In this document: piece by piece, positions 13,779 to 51,095 of the stretch
Layout: each line of letters starts with the position of its first letter
Position numbering within the stretch: the first letter of the stretch is position 1
Assembly: GCF_029227915.1 (NCBI RefSeq)
Contig: NC_079880.1
Coordinates: 30,621,501 to 30,685,500, forward strand
Direction: 5' to 3'
DNA length: 64,000 bases
DNA from: Hydractinia symbiolongicarpus
Lineage: Eukaryota; Cnidaria; Hydrozoa; Anthoathecata; Hydractiniidae
Translations under genes and position numbers: made by a program
Notes under the pieces: model-generated
What the model saw: only the letters and a program-made list of their open reading frames with translations
Told to the model about the DNA's origin: nothing
The model's database searches: none

Positions 13779-15923
13779 TTATGATTGAGATGTGCATATA
13801 ATACATGAGCAATCTGCAGATGGTGAAGGACAAACTGCATCTTCAATATCATCATCGCAAAACTCGTCAAGGTCTTTCAGCAAGTTAATATACTTTACTA
13901 TAGTGATATCAAATTTTTTGATGGTTTCATTCGATAATGCTTTCAGTCGTTGCTCTTCCTCTTGTCTGGCTTTCATACGAGGATGTGTATTAACGTACAA
14001 GAGACGTTCTTGAGTAATTGGCTCGACAAGTGCCCAATTCCTTTCTTTTTCGCATCTTGAAAATGCAGTGTAAGCTGTACCAAGGTTATTTTTTTCCATC
14101 TGAATTGATTGTTGTAACTTGATACGCATGTGGGTGGCAGTTTTACCATCTCCAATCGACATACCCTGACTTTTAGCAATTGTTATCGCATATCCTGGCA
14201 TCAATGGCAGGCCATTTCTGCTGCAACAATTAGATTCACATCGACCTTCAACAGCAGTAATTGGTATCCATGTTGGATGTTCTGGAATCCATATTGGGCC
14301 TTTATAATTTGGGAAATCGACAATGACAGCTATAGGAAATTCAGGTGGTGACATATTTGGCGAATAAAGGATTGCAATTACTTTTCCCATCGCACCATTA
14401 TTAAGACCGAGGCCCGTAAGACCTTTTTGGTTCTTAGTGAGTATTACAGTTGCACCAACTGCCATTAAAGATCTCAGCGGTATTTGACCCAGTTGCTTAT
14501 CAGTCAAAGAGTGGTGTTTACCACTGCCTCTTGATGGAATTACAGCAACAGGCACACCGAGGCTAGCTAATTTATTGTGATTTTCCTCATTAACTTCATT
14601 CCATGTTTCCATCAATGTAAGGACGCGACCATGCGAAAAGTTACATTTTTCGGTTTGTGGCAAACCATCTTCGTAACGACTATTTATATCTTGCCAGTCT
14701 TGTTGAGTGATCGATCCATTACGTATTCTAAGAAGTCGCTGCAAAAGAGCTAACTGATCTGGGCCTTGACGCATTGTTTCTGTAAGAACAATAACATCTT
14801 GAAACGAGCGATAGATTGCATAGCCAGCAAAGTTGATTGTCGAATCATCGTGTTTTGGTGGCTGATGTAGATCCAAAGCACGAATTGGTCCAAGCTGACC
14901 AAGGTCACCAAAGAAATTGACAGCTGGTACACCACCATAATAATTATCAAAGTCTCCCGTAGCCTCGCATAATCTTTGGCTGCACCAGGCCACAAGAAGC
15001 TTCGACTGCATGCTACGTTCATCAATATTAAGTTGAAATAATTTCAGCTCATTGTTTTCATGCATACCTGTATACTTTCTCAGCTTTCTTAGAGATACAT
15101 CACCCAACGGATAGTCAGAAAGCTGGACAGAATTTAAATTCTTATCTTTTTTCAGTTTGTGTGGTGGTGGAGTCATTGAATGTATAGTGCGACCATTAGG
15201 TATGAGGACTGATGCTGCACCAGTTGGGGCCAAGTTCATAACAGCAGAATTTCGCTTAAAAATACGCCGAACGATTCTGGTGAGCGCAGTAATGATGAAT
15301 GTTTTCCCAACACCAGCTGTTCCTTGTATTAATAAACGTAATGGCTGGGTACCTGTTGGCAAAGTTCCTTTTGCAACTTGCAATAAATGCTGAAGATTTA
15401 TACCAATGACTGTTCTCTGTAATTCATTAGCATTTAAGATGTTTATTTGGGGTAAGGTACAATCATCAGCCAGATGCAATTCATTTCTTTCTGCTTCTTC
15501 AGATATAGATTGTAACCATGTGTCAGCATTAATTGGCCATTGACTACCAAAACTTTGAATTGCATAATTATTCCAATCAAATGTAGGCCCTCCATTGGGA
15601 AGAACTTGTTGTACATCCGGCTCATTGATATCAGCAACGTGATGCCTTGCAATATCTCTCATTATCGCTCTGCCTATGTTCATTTGTGCAATGACTGAAT
15701 TTTGGGAACTTTGAGAACTTGCATCTGTATATTGTGATGATTGACATGAAGACTGATTATCGGTTTCATTATTGATTACACGAGTGTGACTTTGTTTTCT
15801 CTCACTCTTTTTATCGAATGATTGTTTAGCCTCCTTCAATGCATCTATTAATATAGGGGGACAGTTTTCAGTTTGAACAAAGGAAGCCAAAGCAGCAGCA
15901 AATGACTCATGTTGTCCCTTCAA
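13779..15923 (-). CDS. PIF1-like SF1B DNA helicase, 5'-truncated (probably Helitron-derived)
   Basis: An uninterrupted 714-codon frame carries the PIF1/RecD-type motifs in order: motif I GTAGVGKT (about residue 201), motif II NIDERSM (299-305), motif III FFGDLGQLGP (337-346), motif V AITIAKSQGMSIG (579-591), motif VI AYTAFSRCEKER (617-628). All core residues appear intact. The family unwinds DNA 5' to 3'; in Helitrons this domain is fused behind a Rep nuclease. The frame has no ATG at its 5' end and stays open across 15923 up to 15963, where the duplicated block begins, so the N-terminal part has been cut off. No Rep motif (HUH) was seen. The tail ends in a Cys-rich CSCIICTSQS. I favour a truncated transposon gene over a host PIF1. 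Confidence 0.88.
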   Translation of the reverse strand: MKGQHESFAAALASFVQTENCPPILIDALKEAKQSFDKKSERKQSHTRVINNETDNQSSCQSSQYTDASSQSSQNSVIAQMNIGRAIMRDIARHHVADINEPDVQQVLPNGGPTFDWNNYAIQSFGSQWPINADTWLQSISEEAERNELHLADDCTLPQINILNANELQRTVIGINLQHLLQVAKGTLPTGTQPLRLLIQGTAGVGKTFIITALTRIVRRIFKRNSAVMNLAPTGAASVLIPNGRTIHSMTPPPHKLKKDKNLNSVQLSDYPLGDVSLRKLRKYTGMHENNELKLFQLNIDERSMQSKLLVAWCSQRLCEATGDFDNYYGGVPAVNFFGDLGQLGPIRALDLHQPPKHDDSTINFAGYAIYRSFQDVIVLTETMRQGPDQLALLQRLLRIRNGSITQQDWQDINSRYEDGLPQTEKCNFSHGRVLTLMETWNEVNEENHNKLASLGVPVAVIPSRGSGKHHSLTDKQLGQIPLRSLMAVGATVILTKNQKGLTGLGLNNGAMGKVIAILYSPNMSPPEFPIAVIVDFPNYKGPIWIPEHPTWIPITAVEGRCESNCCSRNGLPLMPGYAITIAKSQGMSIGDGKTATHMRIKLQQSIQMEKNNLGTAYTAFSRCEKERNWALVEPITQERLLYVNTHPRMKARQEEEQRLKALSNETIKKFDITIVKYINLLKDLDEFCDDDIEDAVCPSPSADCSCIICTSQS

Positions 15924-15963
15924 TTCTTCAGTATTATGCCACGTTCCAACAGAAAATATATAT

Positions 15964-16736
15964 AGGGTGATTTACAGGTTTTTCGAACGAAAATTCAATA
16001 TAGCATTAGAATTCAAAGGTCACTACCATAAAAACCATGGAAAGGTTAATAAAAGAAGTCAATAACAATATCATACCTGATATAACCTTATTTGAATCAA
16101 AGAGATCAAATTTATACTTACGAGCACTAGTACCATTTTTCAAAAACATCATTGTTTATTCTCTGTTAATATAAAACAAAGTATAAATATATATATACAT
16201 ATTAGTATTTTCCAAAGAGGCATCCAAATCGTAAAACAAATGTCTTTTTTTTGCAAAAGACTTAAAAGAAAAGAAGATATTTCAAAAAAGTTATTATTTT
16301 TCATTTTTTGACGATATTCGCCGCTGTACGAAGATGGTCAGTTTTGTACGAGGATAGTCACTCTCAGCGCTACGGCAAAAAAGCCCAACTTCGTACAATG
16401 AATGACATCGTACGGAACACAACAAGCCAATATGGCTACAACGAGCAATTTTCATTTTAAGCGCTATGTATGTGAGACAATGTCACGTGATATTAGTGAG
16501 AGTGACCGTGGCTAAGACCGTATGCCAAACTGATCTCAACTGGAAACGGCATGGTCTCGACGAACCAGATTTTCACGGAAGAAATGACCATAAAAAATAT
16601 TTGGGTAAGTGGGTCAAAAATCGGACGTTTTGAAATTTGATGTACTAGGAGAAAACGCGGAAATTCGATACGCTCTAATATATTTATGGGAACGAGGAAA
16701 ATAGCTTCGCTGCGCTCCCCTTCACTACGCTCCGCA
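15964..16736. repeat. Segmental duplication, copy 2
   Basis: Near-identical to 7113-7873 in direct orientation. It includes the Ginger right TIR and the 318 bp beyond it, which shows that it was copied with flanking DNA and is not an independent insertion. Its left edge cuts the helicase reading frame. Its right edge (after CTCCGCAA) is where the minisatellite starts in copy 1. Confidence 0.92.
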
Positions 16737-23745: not shown

Positions 23746-25143
23746 AACGTTTGCAAACACAACAATCAAAAATCGCCAACTAAAAAATAACAAAATGTAT
23801 TCAAAGTCCGAACCAGCTAATCATGTTGTCGCGAATGATGGATACTCTTTTTGTTAGAAAATTTTAAGTTGCGCTCCTAAAAACTGTTTAAGGCGGAGAA
23901 TTTTAGAGGCATTCTATATAAAGTCGTTAAGGCCTGTTCTTAACGAACAAGTTGAATAAAAAAGATTATTACTTTTCCATAACGGCGTGACGTAAAAATA
24001 TAATTTCTTATTACGACGAATGTATTTTTATTTTCTATTCTACTCATCTCATATTCAAAGTCCTTTGAGAGTTTCGGCAAAAATATTATTATATATATAG
24101 TGGCTTTATTGTATTAGCAGTATTACTTACATGAAGATGTAAAGTTTTATTTACGAAAAGCTTCGTGTATTTTATTGTAAATTTTTTATATGTTCTTTTA
24201 TATAACAGAAACATACCTAGTTCGCCGAATATCTGCTGAGTCTTTTCACTTTTTTCTAACAATTTTAATGGTTGAATCTTTCCCTTTCGACTAAAAACAG
24301 CATTATAATCACAACCGGTGAAAGCGTGATATGCAGGGAGTGACTTACATAGCATATCACCCAACTTTTTGTGCAATTGGTTGACACTGATATATCTAAG
24401 TGTATTTTTTGTGTACAAACCAACCTCTAACCATAAATTGATTTGCTGATCGAGTATAGAAAAACAACTGAGTGTAATAATTATAACATCAGTGTCAGCT
24501 GTGCGAATCAGTACATTATTTGGCGAAGATATTGATGTGACATGATAAAATTATTCGCGAATCTGCTTCTTCGTGTGAGCAGTACAACAGCGGTTCCACA
24601 GTTTTTAGCATCATATCATCGTGAACTTTGTAGGAGTAGCAAATATTACCTCCATTTGCAAACAGGGTTTTTCCTTGAAGTACAGGAGCAAGGTTGTCAT
24701 CCTCCCAGCTCTGAACAAGAAACTGCACTAGAGATTCTTTAAACTGGTCGTTTCTTAAGGCCTGGATCCAGCTTCCAGGGCGCTTCTGTCCTGGTCCTGA
24801 AATGTAAAAGAATCTCTCCCGTCCAGCATTTTTTTGTGTCTTTCACAATCTTTAATTGATGGAGATACTGTTTTATCAAAAACGGAATGTATGACTCACT
24901 TTTAACATTTTTTAAAGAGATAATGGGAGATTTCACCAAAAGTGGTAGGTAAATCAAACTGCAAGTGAAGAAAAAAAATTGCATCAATAATAGTAGTATT
25001 GACATACCTTAAGGGAAGAAATTTTCGCGGGAATTTAATTTCGCGGTTGATCAAAACGATTTTTTTCGCGGAATTTAATTTCGCGGTCGAGAAAAAAATA
25101 TAATTTTCGCGGTCGAGAAAAAATAGTCTTTCTAAATTGTTAA

Positions 25144-25323
25144 TTACTCGTTACATTCATCATCGATAATGAAGTCAAATGCGTTTCTATCAAAGTCTTC
25201 TTCGAACCCCCATTCTGCATCATCATCATTGTCGTCGTCATCTTCATCATTTTCTACGATTTCGTTTACGTATCCTTCCCGTATCTCGTCCGATACTTCG
25301 ATGAAGCTGGGCTGGTCATCACG
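25144..25323 (-). CDS. C-terminal tail of a pogo-like transposase (remnant)
   Basis: Minus-strand frame of about 60 codons: DFQTRDDQPSFIEVSDEIRE, a long Asp/Glu run, WGFEEDFDRNAFDFIIDD, stop at 25144. Acidic C-termini of this kind are usual for pogo/Tigger-type transposases. The second element (29.6-31 kb) ends its transposase frame with DFSRTAFDAFD in the same relative place, which supports common descent. No catalytic part remains here. Confidence 0.55.
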   Translation of the reverse strand, partial: RDDQPSFIEVSDEIREGYVNEIVENDEDDDDNDDDAEWGFEEDFDRNAFDFIIDDECNE

Positions 25324-25841
25324 AGTTTGGAAATCCCTTTGATCGTTTCGCGATCAAGGTTTGCGAAATAGGAGATACAAATGCAGTTGGTCATCTTCCA
25401 CGAGAGATCTCGCGTGTTACAAAATTTTTCATGGATAGAGGAGCAATCGTTAATGCCAAGCTTACAAGTGAACATTATAGACGCTCTCCCATCGTTCAAG
25501 GCGGTATGGAGATTCCATGTAAAATCACAGTGAAAATTGCTGGTATTTGTATTAACCTTCTGTTGATGGAAAAATATAAACAACTTATAGAGGAATTGTA
25601 CATTGAACCCAAGAATGAGGAAAATCTGGGATCCTTTTTACAACCTAATAATGTGACCGAGGAAAGCATCAATTTACCTTCCACTTCATCCCAATCGAAG
25701 AAGAGCAAGTCCAAAGATGAAGCGAGCAATCAGAAAGATATCCGAAGTTTTTTTAGCAAGACCATTAGCATTAAAACAACTACTAAAAGGCGAGATGGCA
25801 AGAAGAAAACGGAAAAGATTATCACGATTGACTCTGATTGA
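25308..25841 (+). CDS. HIRAN-domain protein with PIP box and SIM-like tail, 5'-truncated
   Basis: Open for 177 codons; first internal ATG at 25431. The segment HEFGNPFDRFAIKV..VGHLPREISR matches the HIRAN signature (NPxDxxAxxV ... vGhlPrelsr); HIRAN domains bind 3' DNA ends at stalled forks, as in HLTF/Rad5. It continues NAKLTSEHYRRSPIVQGG. The C-terminal third is Ser/Lys-rich and holds QKDIRSFF (25731-25754), a consensus PCNA-interacting peptide (QxxIxxFF), then a basic KRRDGKKK stretch and a terminal IITIDSD, which fits a SUMO-interacting motif. The 5' end is lost at the internal deletion (in-frame stop at 25302). This looks like a transposon-borne replication-fork adaptor. Confidence 0.7.
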   Translation, partial: WAGHHEFGNPFDRFAIKVCEIGDTNAVGHLPREISRVTKFFMDRGAIVNAKLTSEHYRRSPIVQGGMEIPCKITVKIAGICINLLLMEKYKQLIEELYIEPKNEENLGSFLQPNNVTEESINLPSTSSQSKKSKSKDEASNQKDIRSFFSKTISIKTTTKRRDGKKKTEKIITIDSD

Positions 25842-28720
25842 TTAATGAAAGTTTTATTGATTATTGTAATTCTTAGAGCATCTCTTATGTTAGAAAAGAT
25901 ACTTTTATGTATATGCCATTTCTCCATTCTCAGTTTTCACTGAATTTATAATTCCAATGCAAATAAAATCAAAAATTTTCGCGAGAATTTAATTTCGCGG
26001 TCAACAAATTTCGAAAAATTTCGCGGGAATTTAATTTCGCGGTCGGTGAATTTTTAAAATTTTCGCGGGAAGAAAATTTCGCGGTTTTTTCCAAAAACCG
26101 CGAAAACCGCGAAATTTTCTTCCCGCGAAAATTTCTTCCCTTAAGGTAGGAAGGATTAATGGTGACAACTTTAGATTCTAAGTGTTTCATGATCGAAGCT
26201 TTTGTAGTTTTTTGCATTGGTCCATCTACATGACTCAGTGATAAAGGTACTGGAGTGAGAGGAAACTTTAAAACCTCAGCCATATCAACTTTCTGTTGTA
26301 AAGATAGGTAGAGAATAGAACTAAAAATGTCTCGTACCATACTAATTGCGACTACCTTTTGATTTGGTCCTCGAATCTTTTGAATCCCAGCTTCTGTTGC
26401 AAATGTTTTTAACTATTGTCTTTTGATGCTTTCTTCAAACCGCTTTGGATTAGTTATGCATTCCCTTAAAAGTTTCTTGCACAAATCAGAACCAGATTTC
26501 ATTACATTCAGAGGAAAATCTTCAGTATCCTCTGCTGCACATTTGCTAGTACCAATGTTGTATAACTTATCTTTGTCTACATTTTCGGAGAATGGATTCA
26601 TTGTTTCTTCTATTGATGTTATGATTGCATTAAGGTTGGTGTTATTTTTCCTTATCTGATTTAGCTTTAGGTCTTGAGTGACATCTTCCTTTTTTGTCAA
26701 GTACAGATCGTCAAGAATATGAGATATAAATTCGGTTCGAACAAAATGACTGTCAGTCCAGCGTTGCCTTGCAGATATAAAGTTTGTTAACGCTCCGATT
26801 CCTGTTCGTTCACTTGCTGCATCAGCATTAATGATTTGTTCTAGAGTTAAATTAATAGGTTGTGCAGAGAATGATTTCTCAGTTCTCTGCAAGGAAAACC
26901 AACCTTTCCGGAACTCTTCGAAGACAGTTGGATGTGTTTCTTCTACTCTCAGTAAGTTATCGTGATACCTTACGAGCCATCGTGCGTAATTTCGATGGTT
27001 AAAAGCAAAGAAAATATCTCCAATTTTAGATAAACAATACGTATATAGCCCAAAAATTACCGATTTGAATGCTTCTAATAAACGCATGATAAAGATGAAA
27101 CATGTTGATATAAGTGATCCAGTATTGTGCTGTTTTCCCATGAGCACCTTCCTTGGTCTTTGCAAGGTATTGTTCATACCCTTTCAAGACAGCACCAAAT
27201 TCTGTGCAAGGTGTATATTGACTATTTAATTCATTTTGCTTTATAACATCCAATTCTGATTGAATAATACTGGTAACCTCTTCAACGTTTGACAGCTGTG
27301 CCATATACGACTTGAAATGTAGTATCTCAAAGGCTACACTGAGTAGATAATGAAGGCGTTTACATCTCTTTCTTCCCAGTTATAAAACCTTTAAGACAAC
27401 CTTTAGCCAAAATGTTGCTCTCCGTTAAGACATACGAACCTCCAGATTCTTCTATAAATTTATCAATTGCATGGAAAATGGCAATGAACAGATTATCGAA
27501 TCTGGGTGATTCTTCCACTTGAATCTGCATTGCAACTTTTGAAATTGCAAGATCGTAAGTTACAGCAATGCTGTCTTTAATTCCTTCTGCAGCTACGCGT
27601 TGCGCTTTCTTCATTGTTTCAAGAACCCGTGAACTTGATGTAGGAGATTGGTTAAGTTGACAATTATACCATATCTTTTGAACATTTTCATCATTGCAAA
27701 GATGTAATGAAGCATTCCAACCAACCCATATTGGTATGTTGTTCGTGTCATTCACAAGTAGATCAATCATCCAAAGGATATCTTTAAACCAAGATTGTTT
27801 GTACGAGTTAGGTATATACAGTCTTCTTTTATCGTTTCTTGGTAGAAATGTAGCTTTGTTCATCTTTGGTTTCTTCCTGCAAGGCAAAAATTCTTCTTCT
27901 CTTTTTCTTGATGGAAGGCATCAATTCCTTACTACTGACTGATCTTTTTCACTTGTTTCTCTATAATTTAGGACAGTAATATCATATTTTCTTTGTATTT
28001 GATAAGCAATTCATACAGTGTCATGCAATGTGCTTTTTCCACTCAAATTTCCACAAACCTGTTAAAGTTGTCAAACGCTACAACAGTACCCAAGTTCTGA
28101 TCGTCTTTCATTCTATAAGGCATAGTATTTTTTATCTTTGTTTACTTCAAGCGTGAGTTTCGTCTCCAGTTCTTCGATTGAATGATAGCTCACACAATGC
28201 AATTTAATATCTCAATTATCTTCCTACTCCCTGAAATACTTTTTATAGTAAGGCCTAGTGTAAGATGTTTTGGAGGTTTTTGTCGTCCAGAAGTAACAGC
28301 GAAGACAATATCTTGGCTGATAGCCTTAATTCTTCGTAATTTTGAAGGTGAATTTGATCCTTGGATATCTGGTCCTGCAAAAAGATATGATAGAAATTTT
28401 GAAATGGCTTCTGGAACATCAATCTCTCCTTTTCCAATGTCCTGTACTAACAAATTTGCTGGTAATCGTCCTTTTTCAGCATTAAAAACAGCCTCCCGTA
28501 ATTCAAAAGCTAATGACTTAAGATTAGTGTCAGTGTCAATTTTCTGTCAAAGCAGCAACTAACTTTTGTTTCACCACACCTGTCTTCTTTTCTCTCTTGC
28601 AACAAAATAAGCAAACATCAGGAAACACCCCTGTTGATAAGGATGGTTTTGGAGCATCAACTATGGATCGAGTGACATAAGACCTTTTGCAATACATATT
28701 CTGCAGAATAATTTTCCAAA

Positions 28721-29583
28721 ATGCACCTGATTTAGCTAGCTATAAGTTCCTTAAATGATGCAATCCAAATGTTTTAAGCTCCAAAATGATATGAAATCAA
28801 TGTAAAACCATAGTTGAAAGACTAAGATAAGGACAAAATACATACACGAAAATCCACAACAAGTAACCAGGAGCGATAAGACTTAAAATGGCAGAAAAAA
28901 TCAGCCAAACTTTTGTACGGGAAGCAAAAGAAGCGGCTTTTGCGCAAAAATAATCGCGCGCCAACAAACAACTTTTTGTTTCTGAGGTTGCATTTCAATT
29001 CAAACACTAGTGACTAGTGAATCAATTACTTGTACAGGAATATGAAATATGTTTATCTTAAGCTAAACTTGACTACATTATAATAAATACAACATTATAG
29101 AGTTCTAGATCTAAAGACATTCTTTTAAAAATCAATGTCGAACCGCTTTATAAATAAATTTTTTACCTCCTCGGCTAGTTTTCATGTAATCTCGCGTAAA
29201 AGATTCACCAATGTTTTCATTCCCGCGGATAAATAAAAATAATTGAAATCAACTTTGCTTTAGATCAAATGAAATGATTTTAAGCAAAGTTTATTTCATT
29301 TCATTTGATCCAAAACAAAGTTGATTTATTTTTTTAATTTTAGATTCTTTTTTTGCATGGCAGCTGTCGGCCACCGTAGTCATGTTTTTGGGATCATTTT
29401 TCAGAGAATGTTTCTTTTAATAAAAATTTGGAATACAAAGACTTTAAATTAATGGGGAAACCTGTGGTTAGACACAAAACTGGTCTTACATTCAGGCCAA
29501 TATTCACCTTTAAATTATATAATAAATGGCTGAATTTTACAGAGAATGTTGTTTATAATATGTGAACAAAAAATAACAACTAA
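28721..29583. other. Non-coding stretch with a foldback
   Basis: No gene seen. It includes the inverted repeat at 29246-29327. Confidence 0.5.
29246..29327. repeat. Foldback, ~30-bp arms
   Basis: AAATCAACTTTG...GATCAAATGAAATGA pairs with TCATTTCATTTGATC...CAAAGTTGATTT across a short loop. Confidence 0.8.
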
Positions 29584-29933
29584 ATTTTCGCGGGGATTTA
29601 ATTTCGCGGTTGAGCTCATCTACGAAATGTTAGTACTTCGCGGAGACTTATTTTCGCGGATGAGGGATGTTCTAATTTTTCGCGGGACTTAATTTCGCGG
29701 ATGATTTAATAATAGCAATTTTTGAAAAAGGTAAAATAAGTTGTCAAGAGGGTTCGAGGCCGAATGGCACAATCTCATCGACCTCGTTACACCGGTCATT
29801 TCTACACCAACCGAGACAAAGTGTAGTTTTGCATTTTAGTTCAAAGTTTTTTCAACAGAACTATATCGTCTGGTAAAATAAACACAAATGGATAAAAACA
29901 CCACTAGATAAAAAACGAAACGAATCTTAATTG

Positions 29934-30665
29934 TTAATCAAAAGCGTCAAACGCGGTACGAGAGAAGTCAACATCATCTTCATCTCCAGAGATCGGTTCA
30001 TATTTTGATTCTTTATCCAATTCATTCACTACTATTTCACTTCGTTTGTTGTAAGCAACTTTCAATTGTTCCTCTGTAAGGCTGGAAAAAGAACTCAAAT
30101 TCGGTTAATCATCTGCATTAGAAGCTGGAAGCAAAGGATCGATATCCTGGAAATGGTCAAGTAATTCGAGACCTTCTACACAAGCTTCAAGCGCTTCAGT
30201 GATACCTGCTGCTTTCCAGGCGTTTTTAATAACATTCTTGCCACCTTTCGTCAGATCATTGAATAAATCCACCATCCATTGATGATGATGTCTGATGTCT
30301 TGCAGCGATTTACCTTCATCTGGTTGCAGACCACTCTGAGCGGTATACCAATCGTTAAACCTTCTACGTGTATTCTTCTTTGCGTAACCGTTTACGACCA
30401 AAACCAGAGGTTGGAGTAAGTGCGTCATATTAGCAGGAACGCAGACGATTTCGATATCTTCTTTCTCATACAGATCCAATACTTCTTTCGTCATTTTTCC
30501 AGTAAAGACTAAGGTTTTTTGACCAAGTGGTAAATTTAATAATTTTTCTTGTTCTTTAATAACGTTTTCTATGTACGGTTTGAGAACTTCTTTTGAGAAC
30601 ATTTTGCAAGCTTCATCTGCGTTACTGTAGTGAGTTTTGTTGAAACTTAAAGATTCTTGGGTCAT
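29934..30665 (-). pseudogene. pogo-type (DDE_1) transposase, C-terminal half, catalytic residues lost
   Basis: Frame from 30665 to a TAA at 30105, then open in the same frame for 56 more codons to 29934 (ending DFSRTAFDAFD). It matches the DDE_1/CENP-B-type core: GKMTKEVLDLYEK, then VPANMTHLLQPL, NGYAKK, RRFNDWYTAQSG. Where the family has D in the strand before GxMT the sequence reads LVFTGKMT, and QPLD reads QPLV, so two of the three catalytic acids appear gone. The N-terminal HTH region is missing. Without the catalytic triad it cannot transpose; the long open frame is therefore notable. Confidence 0.78.
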
Positions 30666-30687
30666 TTTTAATTAAATCTTGCGATGC

Positions 30688-30782
30688 GGGTTCCCTGCCA
30701 AATGGGAAAAAAAGAAAAAGAGTAAAGATTCGTCTGCTGTTCCATCCAAGAAACCGTCGAAAAAAACAAGCATAACCAGCTG
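30688..30782 (+). pseudogene. Lys/Ser-rich ORF tail (possible HIRAN-partner remnant)
   Basis: Plus-strand frame reading WEKKKKSKDSSAVPSKKPSK...TSITS then stop. The composition and the KKSKD string resemble the tail of the HIRAN/PIP protein at 25.7 kb (KKSKSKDEA). No PIP box remains. Confidence 0.3.
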
Positions 30783-31045
30783 AAATTATATCTATTGTAC
30801 TTTATTGTACTTCAAGTAATTTTTAAACTCGCTTTATTTCTAGAATCATTAGAAAATATAACACCTGCTGAAACTAGCTACTTAAAACAAATTTCTTGTC
30901 ATTTTTGTCTTTTCATCTTCAGTAGTCGGTTGAAGAAGTAGGCCTACCAATAGAAAGGCTCAGATTTTGCTAACAAAAATAAACAAAAATTTAAAATTTC
31001 GCGGATCGAGCAATTTTTCATTCAATAAAAATTGGCGGTATTTTA

Positions 31046-33916: not shown

Positions 33917-35573
33917 GTCGATGCTGTGAAAATAGTAAAAGGTTTTTACATAACACATTTTGTAGGACGTTTTCGTGCTGATATTTGGAATACATGATGC
34001 CTTAGAGTTACCATTTTGGTTGTCATAAAATTTCTTGTTTTCATAAAGTTAAAAGCGAAGAACTTACAGTGACCCGCTCAGACGCCCACATTCGTGTTAC
34101 CCCAATTGTATTTTATTGTCATTTGTTACGACCACCTACATAACACACGACTTATCTTAAGACAAAATAATACCTGTGTAAGAAGATCATTATTTCTATT
34201 TAAAAACTGAAGACAAATGGGCCACATTTTTCTACCTTGAAACGAATACGTAGTAAAGCATTTACATTCACATTACAGTTTGCATAACTTGGAGATCACA
34301 GCGCTTGCCTAATTTCAATTAGTTTCTTGCACTCCACAAGTTTGGTGAAGACCAAAAAACGACCACTTTTTTTAAATCCCGGGAGTTACTGTACGTACAT
34401 CAAGTTTGACCGCATATGAAAATACAGACCAAATAGAAATTACCATTTTAACCACCATCTTTATCGTAATGTTTTTTTGTTTGTTGCACTAAGTATCAGG
34501 TAAACAATGCACAAGTCTTCACAAGCTGTCAAAGAAAATGATACTTAATACACCTGTATAAAACTTTTCTAATCGAGCAGGTGACACAGGACATTGTTGC
34601 GAGATCCCTATTCAGCAACGTCCACGATAGTAGGTTTTCATGCATATTACTGGAAAAAATGACGCGCTGCTCTTTGTTGCTGCAATAACACTAGGACTGG
34701 GTGGCCCACTTGCTGTGAAACCACACACTCCGCTGATGTTATAAAAAGCACTTTCCAAGTTTATACCATACAAACAATAATTCAAATGGTTGATGCATTC
34801 AAATGGTTAATGTTGTTAGATGCCTGAGGTCAGGGTTTATTGAATTAATCATTTTGCTACATTTGGACGAAGTGTTTCGTTTCTTCCCGTTAAGGTCAAT
34901 ACCACAAGCATATCATGCGAAATAATTCAAGCTATCGATGTTATTAAGGGCACTAACACTGTCAACTAAAACACAACATCTTTAACGCTGTTAAGTCGTT
35001 AACAATTTAGTGTGAACAAAGCTTATTAAACATAGCACATATTTTTGTGTTAAGTTTATTTTTACTTTTTGATTTTGGCGAAGATGTTACTTAAATTTGA
35101 AGGCTGTTTTTTTTCCGGGAGATTTCAGCATATGGGACAGTTTTTCTGCAACAATCAACAAATTTTAATTACTTTTGTCTTTATGTTGCCTTACTGATAG
35201 CTCACTGGAATGGCTCAAAACCATAGTATATATGTTTTTGGCTTTTATAAATTTCCCTAGAGCTTTGCACCTATTTCCCGCCGGATGTCAGATATAAGAC
35301 GTCATCACAATTTGCGAAAAAAAATAAAACCGTTTTCTGCATTTCTACATGTAAGTCAAAGTATTTGAAATCAAATTTGCCTAAGAAATTTAAAAAGTCA
35401 GTTCTTAGCTCGGCCAAGATTTCCTTTTTCGAATTCGTTGATAATGTAGCGGTTTTGTTTTACTATGTATGCTTTGATAAAACCCAGATATAATTATATT
35501 CCATACCACTGGATTAAAAAATGGGTTAAACAAGTGGTAGAACTTTAAATCAACATTATGCATCCTCCTCTCC
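33917..35573. other. Non-coding, probable 3' UTR then intergenic
   Basis: No open frame or exon was recognised between the tetraspanin-like stop and the satellite. Confidence 0.5.
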
Positions 35574-35576
35574 AGG

Positions 35577-36968
35577 GTCTCTTGCCGCTATCAAATTCAT
35601 GAGAAATGAACTTGCTGCCGTCAGCCACAATTATTATGTTTCAAGAGCATGTATTTGACAAAATAACTTAGAATCCGAAGTCACTACACATTGACAATTC
35701 CAAAGTGCCCGACTGCAATATAAAAACAATCAACGTGATTTCTCATAGCGGTCTCTTGCCGCTATCAAATTCATGAGAAATGAACTTGCTGCCGTCAGCC
35801 ACAATTATTATGTTTCAAGAGCATGTATTTGACAAAATAACTTAGAATCCGAAGTCACTGCACATTGACAATTCCAAAGTGCCCGACTGCAATATAAAAA
35901 CAATCAACGTGATTTCTCATAGCGGTCTCTTGCCGCTATCAAATTCATGAGAAATGAACTTGCTGCCGTCAGCCACAATTATTATGTTTCAAGAGCATGT
36001 ATTTGACAAAATAACTTAGAATCCGAAGTCACTGGACATTGACAATTCCAAAATGCGCGACTGCAATATAAAAACAATCAACGTGATTTCTCATAGCGGT
36101 CTCTTGCCGCTATCAAATTCATGAGAAATAAACTTGCTGTCGTCAACCACAATTATTATGTTTCAAGAGCATGTATTTGACAAAATAACTTAGAATCCGA
36201 AGTCACTGCACATTGACAATTCCAAAATGCGCGACTGCAATATAAAAACAATCAACGTGATTTCTCATAGCGGTCTCTTGCCGCTATCAAATTCATGAGA
36301 AATGAATTTGCTGCCGTCAGCCACAATTATTATGTTTCAAGGGCATGTATTTGACAAAATAACTTAGAATCCGAAGTCACTGCACATTGACAATTCCAAA
36401 ATGCGCGACTGCAATATAAAAACAATCAACGTGATTTCTCATAGCGGTCTCTTGCCGCTATCAAATTCATGAGAAATGAATTTGCTGCCGTCAGCCACAA
36501 TTATTATGTTTCAAGAGCATGTATTTGACAAAATAACTTAGAATCCGAAGTCACTGCACATTGACAATTCCAAAATGCGCGACTGCAATATAAAAACAAT
36601 CAACGTGATTTCTCATAGCGGTCTCTTGCCGCTATCAAATTCATGAGAAATAAACTTGCTGTCGTCAACCACAATTATTATGTTTCAAGAGCATGTATTT
36701 GACAAAATAACTTAGAATCCGAAGTCACTGCACATTGACAATTCCAAAATGCGCGACTGCAATATAAAAACAATCAACGTGATTTCTCATAGCGGTCTCT
36801 TGCCGCTATCAAATTCATGAGAAATGAATTTGCTGCCGTCAGCCACAATTATTATGTTTCAAGGGCATGTATTTGACAAAATAACTTAGAATCCGAAGTC
36901 ACTGCACATTGACAATTCCAAAATGCCCGACTGCAATATAAAAACAATCAACGTGATTTCTCATAGCG
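35577..36968. repeat. 174-bp satellite, eight units with a 3-unit higher-order pattern
   Basis: Units begin at AGCGG near 35748, 35922, 36096, 36270, 36444, 36618 and 36792, exactly 174 bp apart, plus a first unit from 35577. Each starts with a hairpin AGCGG-TCTCTTG-CCGCT. A variant (AAATAAACTTGCTGTCGTCAACC) appears at the 4th and 7th units; each time the next unit carries CAAGGGCATG, indicating a 522-bp higher-order repeat. Confidence 0.96.
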
Positions 36969-37331
36969 GCTTAATTAGCCTTGCTGTTTCATTATATATG
37001 TTCATGGTTGCAGGACTTAGATATCGTGCATTTGAAAAAAAAATTTAAACTGCTTCTTATAAAATACTAAAACTCGTCCATTTTATTTCTTTACTTTTTT
37101 TCCCCACTTAGTAACTTACAAAATAGATATTCTCAATAACCTGCGCACTCTGGTATAAATTATTTTAATAGGGCTGCAATTAAGAGAGGCAATTCTATCT
37201 GTCTCGTTTGATCCAACGGATTATGGTGCAACAATAGGCGGGTTACGTCAGACGAACATTGATTGTTTTTCTTTCTCAAACGACGTATTCCAACAATGCC
37301 ATAAATGGTTCACGTGTGCGCGAAAGAAGCA

Positions 37332-49916: not shown

Positions 49917-50088
49917 TGTTTATCATCAGTATGGTGTAATCCTTACCTGTGGATGACTACTGTCATCCTCAGTAAGGTAAGTGTTTACACGGAGCTAAAT
50001 GATCTTATGATTATGCGCTCTGGGCCTAAAGGACTACAACACCCTTTACGACCTACGTCTAATCACCGTCTCATTGCAAATAGAAACT
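49917..50088 (+). repeat. Dispersed hairpin repeat, copy 1
   Basis: Shares GTATGGTGTAATCCTTACCT, GATGACTA.TGTCATCCTCAG, TAAGG and GCCTAAAGG.CTACA with 50937-51095. It contains a strong stem: CCTTAC..GGATGAC-TACT-GTCATCC..GTAAGG. Confidence 0.85.
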
Positions 50089-50936
50089 TGACAAGCCAAT
50101 CGTGTAAAGAAATGGGTAATAGAAGTAGGAAGGACTAGGGAGGATGGTCATCTTATAATACGACAAGTTTTAAAAAGTTCATTCAGTCAAGGTATTTTCG
50201 GTTCAAGATCTTTCAAATTGAGGATACAGATAAACTGCATAACCCCATTGACGCATCCCTACGAATGAATTTTAAGGTTCTCCTCTAACCTCTTCCCCAG
50301 GGCCCAGAACACTATGATATTCTGACTGAACAGTTAGAATTAAACACGTTAAGCATGGGTAGTCCGCAATTTATAGCCCGCAGACACTTTACCCCCTCCC
50401 TCCCTCCCTTCCCCTTTTACCGTTCGGGAAAAAAAGCCCAGGAATAATTGCTTTAAGAAATTAATCTCTTAATCACACGCAGGTAGAAAATATATACAAA
50501 GCGTATTGCTCAGTAAAAATGGAACGTTTTATTCAACAAATTTATCTAAGTGAGCTTATATCTGGAGGTTGCTGGTACTCTTTAAAAAATGACTAAAAAA
50601 AATCCCATCGTTTATATACCCCATCGTTTTCTGCTATCCATTGCAATTCCAATATTATTCGTTATTATTAGGTGATCTGATGGAGCAACTAAGTTTAACA
50701 ACAAGAATGTACCTTGTTTCATCATATTTAAAGTAGCATCTTTTGCTGCTAACTCGAACTGAAATTTGAATCTTCTATATACCTTGGTTGCAGCTAATTT
50801 TAATTATTTGGATAAAAAATGTCAACAACAAAGAATATGTAAACATGAACAACACGGTACCGTGTGTAGGCTTGCGCCACAAGTGTTTACAAAGGGAGCT
50901 AAACTGCTATATTTTAACATCTTTTCTCAGTCATCA

Positions 50937-51095
50937 TAAGTATGGTGTAATCCTTACCTGTGGATGACTAATGTCATCCTCAGTAAGGTTTGTAATGACA
51001 TGGAGCTGAATGTTCTATATGAATATACGCTCTAGGCCTAAAGGTCTACACCAACCTTTATGGTCTAAGTCTGATCACGATCGTATTATAAATAG
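50937..51095 (+). repeat. Dispersed hairpin repeat, copy 2
   Basis: Same orientation as copy 1, about 1 kb away, diverged outside the stem-loop, which is kept almost unchanged (loop TAAT). Confidence 0.85.

Follow-up and report, generated by a model that had tools for sequence, protein, structure and literature searches.

A pogo-like transposon of Hydractinia symbiolongicarpus that pairs its transposase with a divergently encoded HIRAN protein carrying PIP-like and SIM-like motifs

By description, the known family closest to the element reported here is Passer, a member of the pogo superfamily with a DDE_1 transposase of the DD35D type, TA target-site duplications, short terminal inverted repeats and, as described, a single gene, that of the transposase (PMC9976928). 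The superfamily in general is described as possessing one or two open reading frames (ORFs) encoding transposases (PMC7386202). In Drosophila pogo, Tigger, and Lemi1, a PCNA-interacting protein (PIP) box is said to lie in the transposase itself, with a PCNA link for a pogo-type element, although the functional relevance of such boxes in pogo, Tigger, Lemi1, and Ac/Ds is called unclear in the same source (PMC5371812). Here, we describe an element in a 64-kb stretch of the Hydractinia symbiolongicarpus genome (the window, C6:30621501-30685500 of a 480.9-Mb assembly with 76 contigs) that shares the DDE_1 domain, the DD35D spacing, the TA duplications, and the short inverted repeats with Passer but, in its intact form, possesses two divergent genes, the second of which encodes a HIRAN protein; the clamp-type box lies on this separate protein, unlike in pogo, Tigger, and Lemi1.

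The window holds a dead, internally deleted member of this two-gene cut-and-paste transposon (Table 1). A sequence-only reading of the window had proposed an element bounded by TA duplications and perfect terminal inverted repeats; the duplications and ends stand, but the perfect stretch is 27 bases per tip and not 28, with 42-44 nt being 93% complementary. When the flanks are joined with one TA, a single continuous minus-strand host frame runs across the join (..KVVTINPSY/VNTTIIDAIFF..), and the boundaries are therefore exact. With ≤3 mismatches allowed, the window contains the 20-nt tip two times, versus 0.05 expected. The interrupted host sequence (24089-28546, minus strand) is a degenerate coding repeat in several frames, which reads through once the element is removed and matches no Pfam family above cut-off. 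Subterminal repeats of the TTTCGCGG type are found at both element ends. At the right end, they build a 32-bp perfect inverted repeat (26057-26134) with no left-end counterpart in the repeat analysis, so the two ends are not equivalent.

Both coding remnants proposed from the letters alone proved to be what they seemed. The acidic minus-strand ORF closes with the C-terminal 57 residues of the complete transposase, and the plus-strand ORF (25305-25841, 178 residues as read in the window) gives a truncated match to the HIRAN profile PF08797 (profile positions 34-80 of 96), which at 19.9 bits (E 6e-4) falls short of the 24.7-bit cut-off, and carries both tail motifs, QKDIRSFF and IITIDSD. The sequence lying between positions 310 and 2518 of the intact reference copy (L014) is missing, and with it the two start regions as well as the central spacer; the window copy thus cannot make either whole protein by itself.

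Table 1. Features of the deleted transposon copy and of an older relative, in window coordinates
Feature	Position	Strand	Basis or remark
Left TA target-site duplication	25005..25006	.	Sequence; host frame restored on removing element plus one TA
Left terminal inverted repeat, CCTTAAGGGAAG...	25007..25048	+	First 27 nt perfect; 42 nt at 93%
Left subterminal repeats around TTTCGCGG	25020..25112	+	Presumed transposase-binding sites
DDE_1 transposase C-terminus and stop, acidic tail	25144..25317	-	Residues 494-550 (57) of translated frame L014:638-2290; tblastn 98% identity to intact transposase
Deletion junction	25315..25316	.	2-nt GT microhomology; ~2.2 kb (reference 311-2517) gone; prefix 310, suffix 832 versus L014
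HIRAN-protein gene, 3' part	25317..25841	+	Residues 34-207 and stop; 174 residues at 100% identity to the HIRAN protein of L014; PF08797
PIP-box-like motif QKDIRSFF	25731..25754	+	Shuffle test; core conserved across families
C-terminal SUMO-interaction-like motif IITIDSD	25818..25838	+	Shuffle test; [IV]x[IV]D end in 9/11 representatives
AATAAA, possible polyadenylation signal of HIRAN gene	25962..25967	+	Sequence
Right subterminal repeats	25973..26134	.	Innermost part is 32-bp perfect inverted repeat 26057-26088 / 26103-26134
Right terminal inverted repeat	26105..26146	-	27 nt at tip perfect; 42-44 nt at 93%
Right TA target-site duplication	26147..26148	.	Sequence
Older internally deleted relative (bounds approximate)	29567..31045	.	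Subterminal repeats 29582-29705, about 30981-31045
Transposase remnant of older relative	29934-30671	-	DDE_1 21.6 bits, just below 22-bit cut-off; 35% identity to intact transposase

A search of the host genome for the element, in which 40 of 235 candidates were scored and 87 pieces matched, showed many copies of this family, which we call family A; 14 of these were read. The full-length element is 3,349 bp, with TA duplications and CCTTAAGG tips. Three of the 14 copies are identical over this whole length, and L018 and L019 are also identical except for a right tip that is 2-4 nt short. Two further copies are nearly identical apart from a 94-bp unit in the central spacer, present twice in the reference, three times in L017, and once in L020; this unit (L014 about 2625-2806) is a possible shared promoter or enhancer unit. 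The remaining seven copies are internally deleted, with measured lengths of 577-2,539 bp. TA lies directly at both complete tips in 11/14 copies, and in the other three (L018, L019, and the deleted L026) it follows a right tip shortened by 2-4 nt, the left tip being complete; the shortening may reflect imprecise right-end cleavage or joining.

The simplest deletion junctions show 2-nt overlaps (GT in the window copy, GA in L024, AA in L027) or a 4-nt insert (L025), as one would expect from interrupted gap repair followed by end joining. Two 2,105-bp copies that share one deletion are both on C3 but ~203 kb from each other and with different flanking sequence, which argues that deletion derivatives were themselves mobilized. 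The identical intact copies are the product of recent amplification, and family A looks recently active. One of the intact, identical full-length copies is found at C6:30596818-30600166, on the contig that also holds the window copy and at a distance of 46 kb from it, possibly the result of a local hop.

The transposase is ~539 residues long, with one predicted short intron and a D-D-35-D catalytic triad. It matches the DDE_1 profile at 33.9 bits in family A and 40.2 bits in a second family, B (cut-off 22), and the spacing between the second and third catalytic residues is 35 in all six transposases that show all three motifs; in a further one, L065, the piece read does not include the first motif. 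The earlier label of pogo-like is consistent with DDE_1, the TA duplication, and DD35D, as an assignment by features rather than by phylogeny against named pogo families. Of the Brk and HTH_Tnp_Tc5 DNA-binding motifs associated with Passer, Pfam detects neither in family A at E<1, and HTH_Tnp_Tc5 scores 14.5 bits in family B, below its 22.2 cut-off.

The second protein (207 residues) is transcribed opposite to the transposase from the shared central spacer. At full length in family A it matches PF08797 above the cut-off (26.4 bits, profile positions 2-80), as do the proteins of family B (32.5) and of L070 (29.9), while that of L069 falls below it (16.0). No further domain, and no sequence-specific DNA-binding domain, was found in the Pfam scan of the 207 residues; HIRAN is thus the sole Pfam domain of a small, transposon-encoded protein, unlike in HLTF and Rad5. 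The predicted structure has the HIRAN fold, with fold matches to HLTF and Rad5. Between families (five pairs), synonymous differences are saturated (pS 0.73-0.88) while pN, the nonsynonymous measure, is 0.24-0.40, which argues for long-term constraint on the HIRAN protein.

How general is the pairing? We scored the best 150 of 774 candidates in a genome search with the HIRAN protein (150 matches listed) and the best 79 of 1,037 with the transposase (82 matches). These counts are of matches and not of elements, since some matches are pieces of one copy, and the unpaired ones include deleted copies. Among the matches listed, a HIRAN match lies within 4 kb of 64/82 transposase matches, and 61 of the 150 HIRAN matches have a transposase partner. 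The orientation is divergent in 64/64 pairs. Under random placement such pairs number 0.065 on average and never more than 1 (200 trials). The transposase identities among paired matches range from 39 to 100%.

Family B (transposase 59%, HIRAN protein 56% identity; 22 equal-scoring open HIRAN matches among those listed) is a good example: the spacing in this identity class is a constant 607 nt in 20/20 pairs, and two copies are 99.94% identical over 3,487 columns. Its tips read TA followed by CCTTAAGGGAA, with TTTTGGCGG repeats in place of TTTCGCGG; L064 is a copy with B tips and no transposase match in the stretch read. The tip of TA followed by CCTTAAGGG recurs in diverged families and is present in L028-L033; it was not seen in the shortened stretches of the families in L065-L075 by an exact 8-mer search. 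One diverged relative, family F, was read in a single stretch (L072 2464-3231, C5:17705600-17709600), where a 256-residue protein is Cys-rich at its N-terminus and contains a region that is HIRAN-like in its similarity to family A, and where no transposase was found. Five divergent pairs in the class with 35-41% transposase identity probably belong to it, with the same HIRAN range (about 10-134) as L072, the one member read.

Two alternatives should be judged on this evidence. Transposons do capture host genes as a matter of general knowledge, and the sequence-only reading had named absence of a HIRAN ORF from full-length copies, or a one-off capture, as what would overturn it. The intact copies of family A do encode a DDE_1 transposase and a HIRAN protein divergently, as it had predicted, other families do likewise, and neither kind of exception appeared among the copies and matches examined. 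Passive cargo, that is, a host HIRAN gene captured by one element, is contradicted by the 64 paired and uniformly divergent matches over such a range of identities, by the tips in common, and by constraint between families; we consider it highly improbable. The divergent layout, and a central spacer with one to three 94-bp units, would also suit a HIRAN protein that does no more than regulate transcription from a shared central promoter. This too is improbable, if less so, because Pfam shows no sequence-specific DNA-binding domain in the protein and because the reported ligands of the HLTF HIRAN domain are single strands, ends, or junctions (PMC4666394).

In shuffles of the 178-residue window ORF, a PIP-type motif arose in 0.3%, a motif of the SUMO-interaction (SIM) type in 1.6%, and both together in 0/40,000. 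Across 32 HIRAN ORFs, whose patterns were scored by script, the core D/N-I-R/W-x-F/M-F/L is present in 24, and 21 terminate in [IV]x[IV]D followed by at most two residues; a canonical Q-first PIP box is found in three, L014 of family A and L046 and L064 of family B. The ORFs without the core are L068, L073, L074, L075, and L095 (tail apparently in another frame), L081 (DKRVIF), L092 (a relic), and L072 (family F).

For the shuffle test across families we took one row per distinct family, leaving out the relic, copies that were nearly identical, and rows with a frameshift: A L014, B L046, C L065, D L066, E L070, E1 L067, F L072, G L069, H L071, I L090, and J L091. The core occurs in 10/11 representatives (chance ≤0.00035 each) and the terminal motif in 9/11 (0.0026-0.009 each). 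Because both patterns were worded after viewing the tails, these single-family chances are too kind, and the argument lies in the recurrence across diverged families, which favors function over chance. In an alignment of 11 rows with L075 replacing family F, every row has the I of DIR and almost every row its D, while the rest of the tail barely aligns; families A, B, D, G, and J retain FF. The DIRxFF form resembles the Q-less PIP of RFC1.

One should also ask whether the transposases carry such boxes. Neither the canonical PIP nor DI[RW]x[FM][FL] occurs in seven transposase frames, and D/N-[ILM]-R-x-[FM]-[FLY] is absent from the recognized frames of nine paired loci, some of which are incomplete and, for most families, lack a located first exon. 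Three transposase matches at 35-37% identity, all of one family (L096, L097, L098), have no HIRAN match within 4 kb, where a strongly diverged partner in the flanks is possible. In all three, the protein starts with MAKVRDLRDFY (one whole frame and two N-termini read), and in 2/20,000 shuffles a box of this sort falls within the N-terminal 25 residues. Judged by its residues, this is the same kind of PIP-like box, here on the transposase N-terminus and in a single family.

This box bears on a reading in which the HIRAN protein serves counter-defense, competing with host HIRAN/clamp factors (those of the HLTF/Rad5 type and readers of SUMO-PCNA) so that host repair neither reverses nor silences transposition intermediates, without recruiting the transposase. 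Its HIRAN, clamp, and SUMO parts do resemble host damage-tolerance factors, with fold matches to HLTF and Rad5 and with the PIP-like box plus SIM described for Srs2 (PMC10127746). We regard it as unlikely, though worth keeping in mind: it leaves the box on the HIRAN-less family's transposase unexplained, and strict pairing with a transposase, though it would suit a decoy, does not follow from one.

Our preferred reading, toward which the balance tips modestly, is that the second protein acts as an adaptor through which the transposition complex would reach DNA undergoing replication or gap repair. What it binds and does we infer from its parts and from three precedents. The HIRAN domain of HLTF is reported to bind single-stranded DNA and to favor fork-like junctions, with others reporting 3'-end binding (PMC4666394). 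Srs2 is described as recognizing SUMO-PCNA through a PIP-like box, a linker, and a SIM, the same order as here, although it is a helicase tail whose box is described without FF, and we claim no homology (PMC10127746). In Tn7, TnsE is an accessory protein in which recessed 3'-end binding and clamp binding steer insertion (PMC5371812); the same union of 3'-end recognition with sliding-clamp binding is predicted here, although TnsE is bacterial and belongs to a different transposition system, and the protein here has a HIRAN domain, so that the likeness is one of analogy and not of membership. By these analogies, the HIRAN barrel would hold 3' DNA ends or fork-like junctions, the D-I-R-x-F-F box would dock on PCNA, and the extreme C-terminus would favor SUMO-modified PCNA or another SUMOylated repair factor. 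Most likely, the adaptor would in this way bring the transposition complex to replicating or gap-repair DNA, either for target choice or for copying the donor gap back from the sister; the internal deletions fit failed gap repair.

Several observations weigh against this proposal. The core is missing from 8/32 ORFs and the C-terminal motif from 11/32, most of them frameshifted or relics, and the diverged relics L031 and L092 have VKILEPF(L) or similar at the motif position. Family D has no SIM at its end, and family F shows neither motif nor, in L072, a PF08797 match. The PIP and SIM parts of the structural model are of low confidence. Within families, where differences are few, several pairs give a dN/dS (the nonsynonymous to synonymous ratio) close to 1 and so no clear constraint, as one would expect of young copies in decay. 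A looser xxx[ILM]xx[FY][FY] occurs in the transposase frames of 4/9 paired loci (WIVDYY- and ANMTKFY-type, in the catalytic-domain region). The 577-bp copy L027 has neither gene intact and yet possesses whole ends and TA duplications, so neither protein is required in cis.

The wording of the motif itself has to be loosened too. The sequence-only reading spoke of a PIP box and a SIM, and such motifs do recur, but the strict Qxx[ILM]xx[FY][FY] is found in 2/11 representatives only (families A and B); of the other nine, eight have a Q-less DIR-type core, and what is conserved is DIRx[FM][FL]. With the Q so rarely kept and the linker of the protein basic, DIRxFF and I-x-I-D might instead bind a partner other than PCNA and SUMO (e.g., the transposase or a nuclear-import factor), the protein being a transpososome subunit that holds cleaved 3' ends. 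The likeness of DIRxFF to the RFC1 box, a similar box on a related transposase, and the PCNA interaction reported for pogo speak against such docking, which we think rather doubtful.

With Passer described as having one gene, and with no HIRAN transposon described, as judged on titles and abstract openings, among the open-licence papers listed (Repbase, outside that search, may contain an unlabelled entry), we consider pogo-type transposons with a second, divergent HIRAN-PIP-SIM gene likely to be new. The word HIRAN is absent from the main texts of PMC9976928, PMC7386202, and PMC7325037.

The older relative listed in Table 1 has no recognizable outer CCTTAAGG tips. Elsewhere in the window are two matches to U8 snoRNA (49923-50063 and 50934-51075; 63.5 and 51.1 bits), as fits a host of animal type, a 730-codon minus-strand frame encoding a PIF1-type helicase (13779-15971, 46.6 bits), possibly of a Helitron, and, by eye, a tandem array of ~170-bp units starting gcggtctcttgccgctatcaaattcatgag (about 35570-36970).

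More tentatively, we propose an animal lineage in which the machinery is split between a transposase and a replisome-docking protein (HIRAN, canonical or Q-less PIP, terminal SIM), a convergent eukaryotic counterpart of Tn7 TnsE, with the clamp motif on the partner in paired families and on the transposase in the unpaired one. The presumed clamp function would lie on a separate protein, in a family that looks recently active and has identical intact copies, and could therefore be deleted, exchanged, or altered while the transposase is left as it is. A direct test thus becomes feasible of whether cut-and-paste transposons of eukaryotes are coupled to the sliding clamp, and for what reason. If the proposal is true, these elements would have converged with bacterial Tn7, and a protein that reads SUMO-PCNA and binds 3' ends could serve as a small tool for marking sites of replication or repair.

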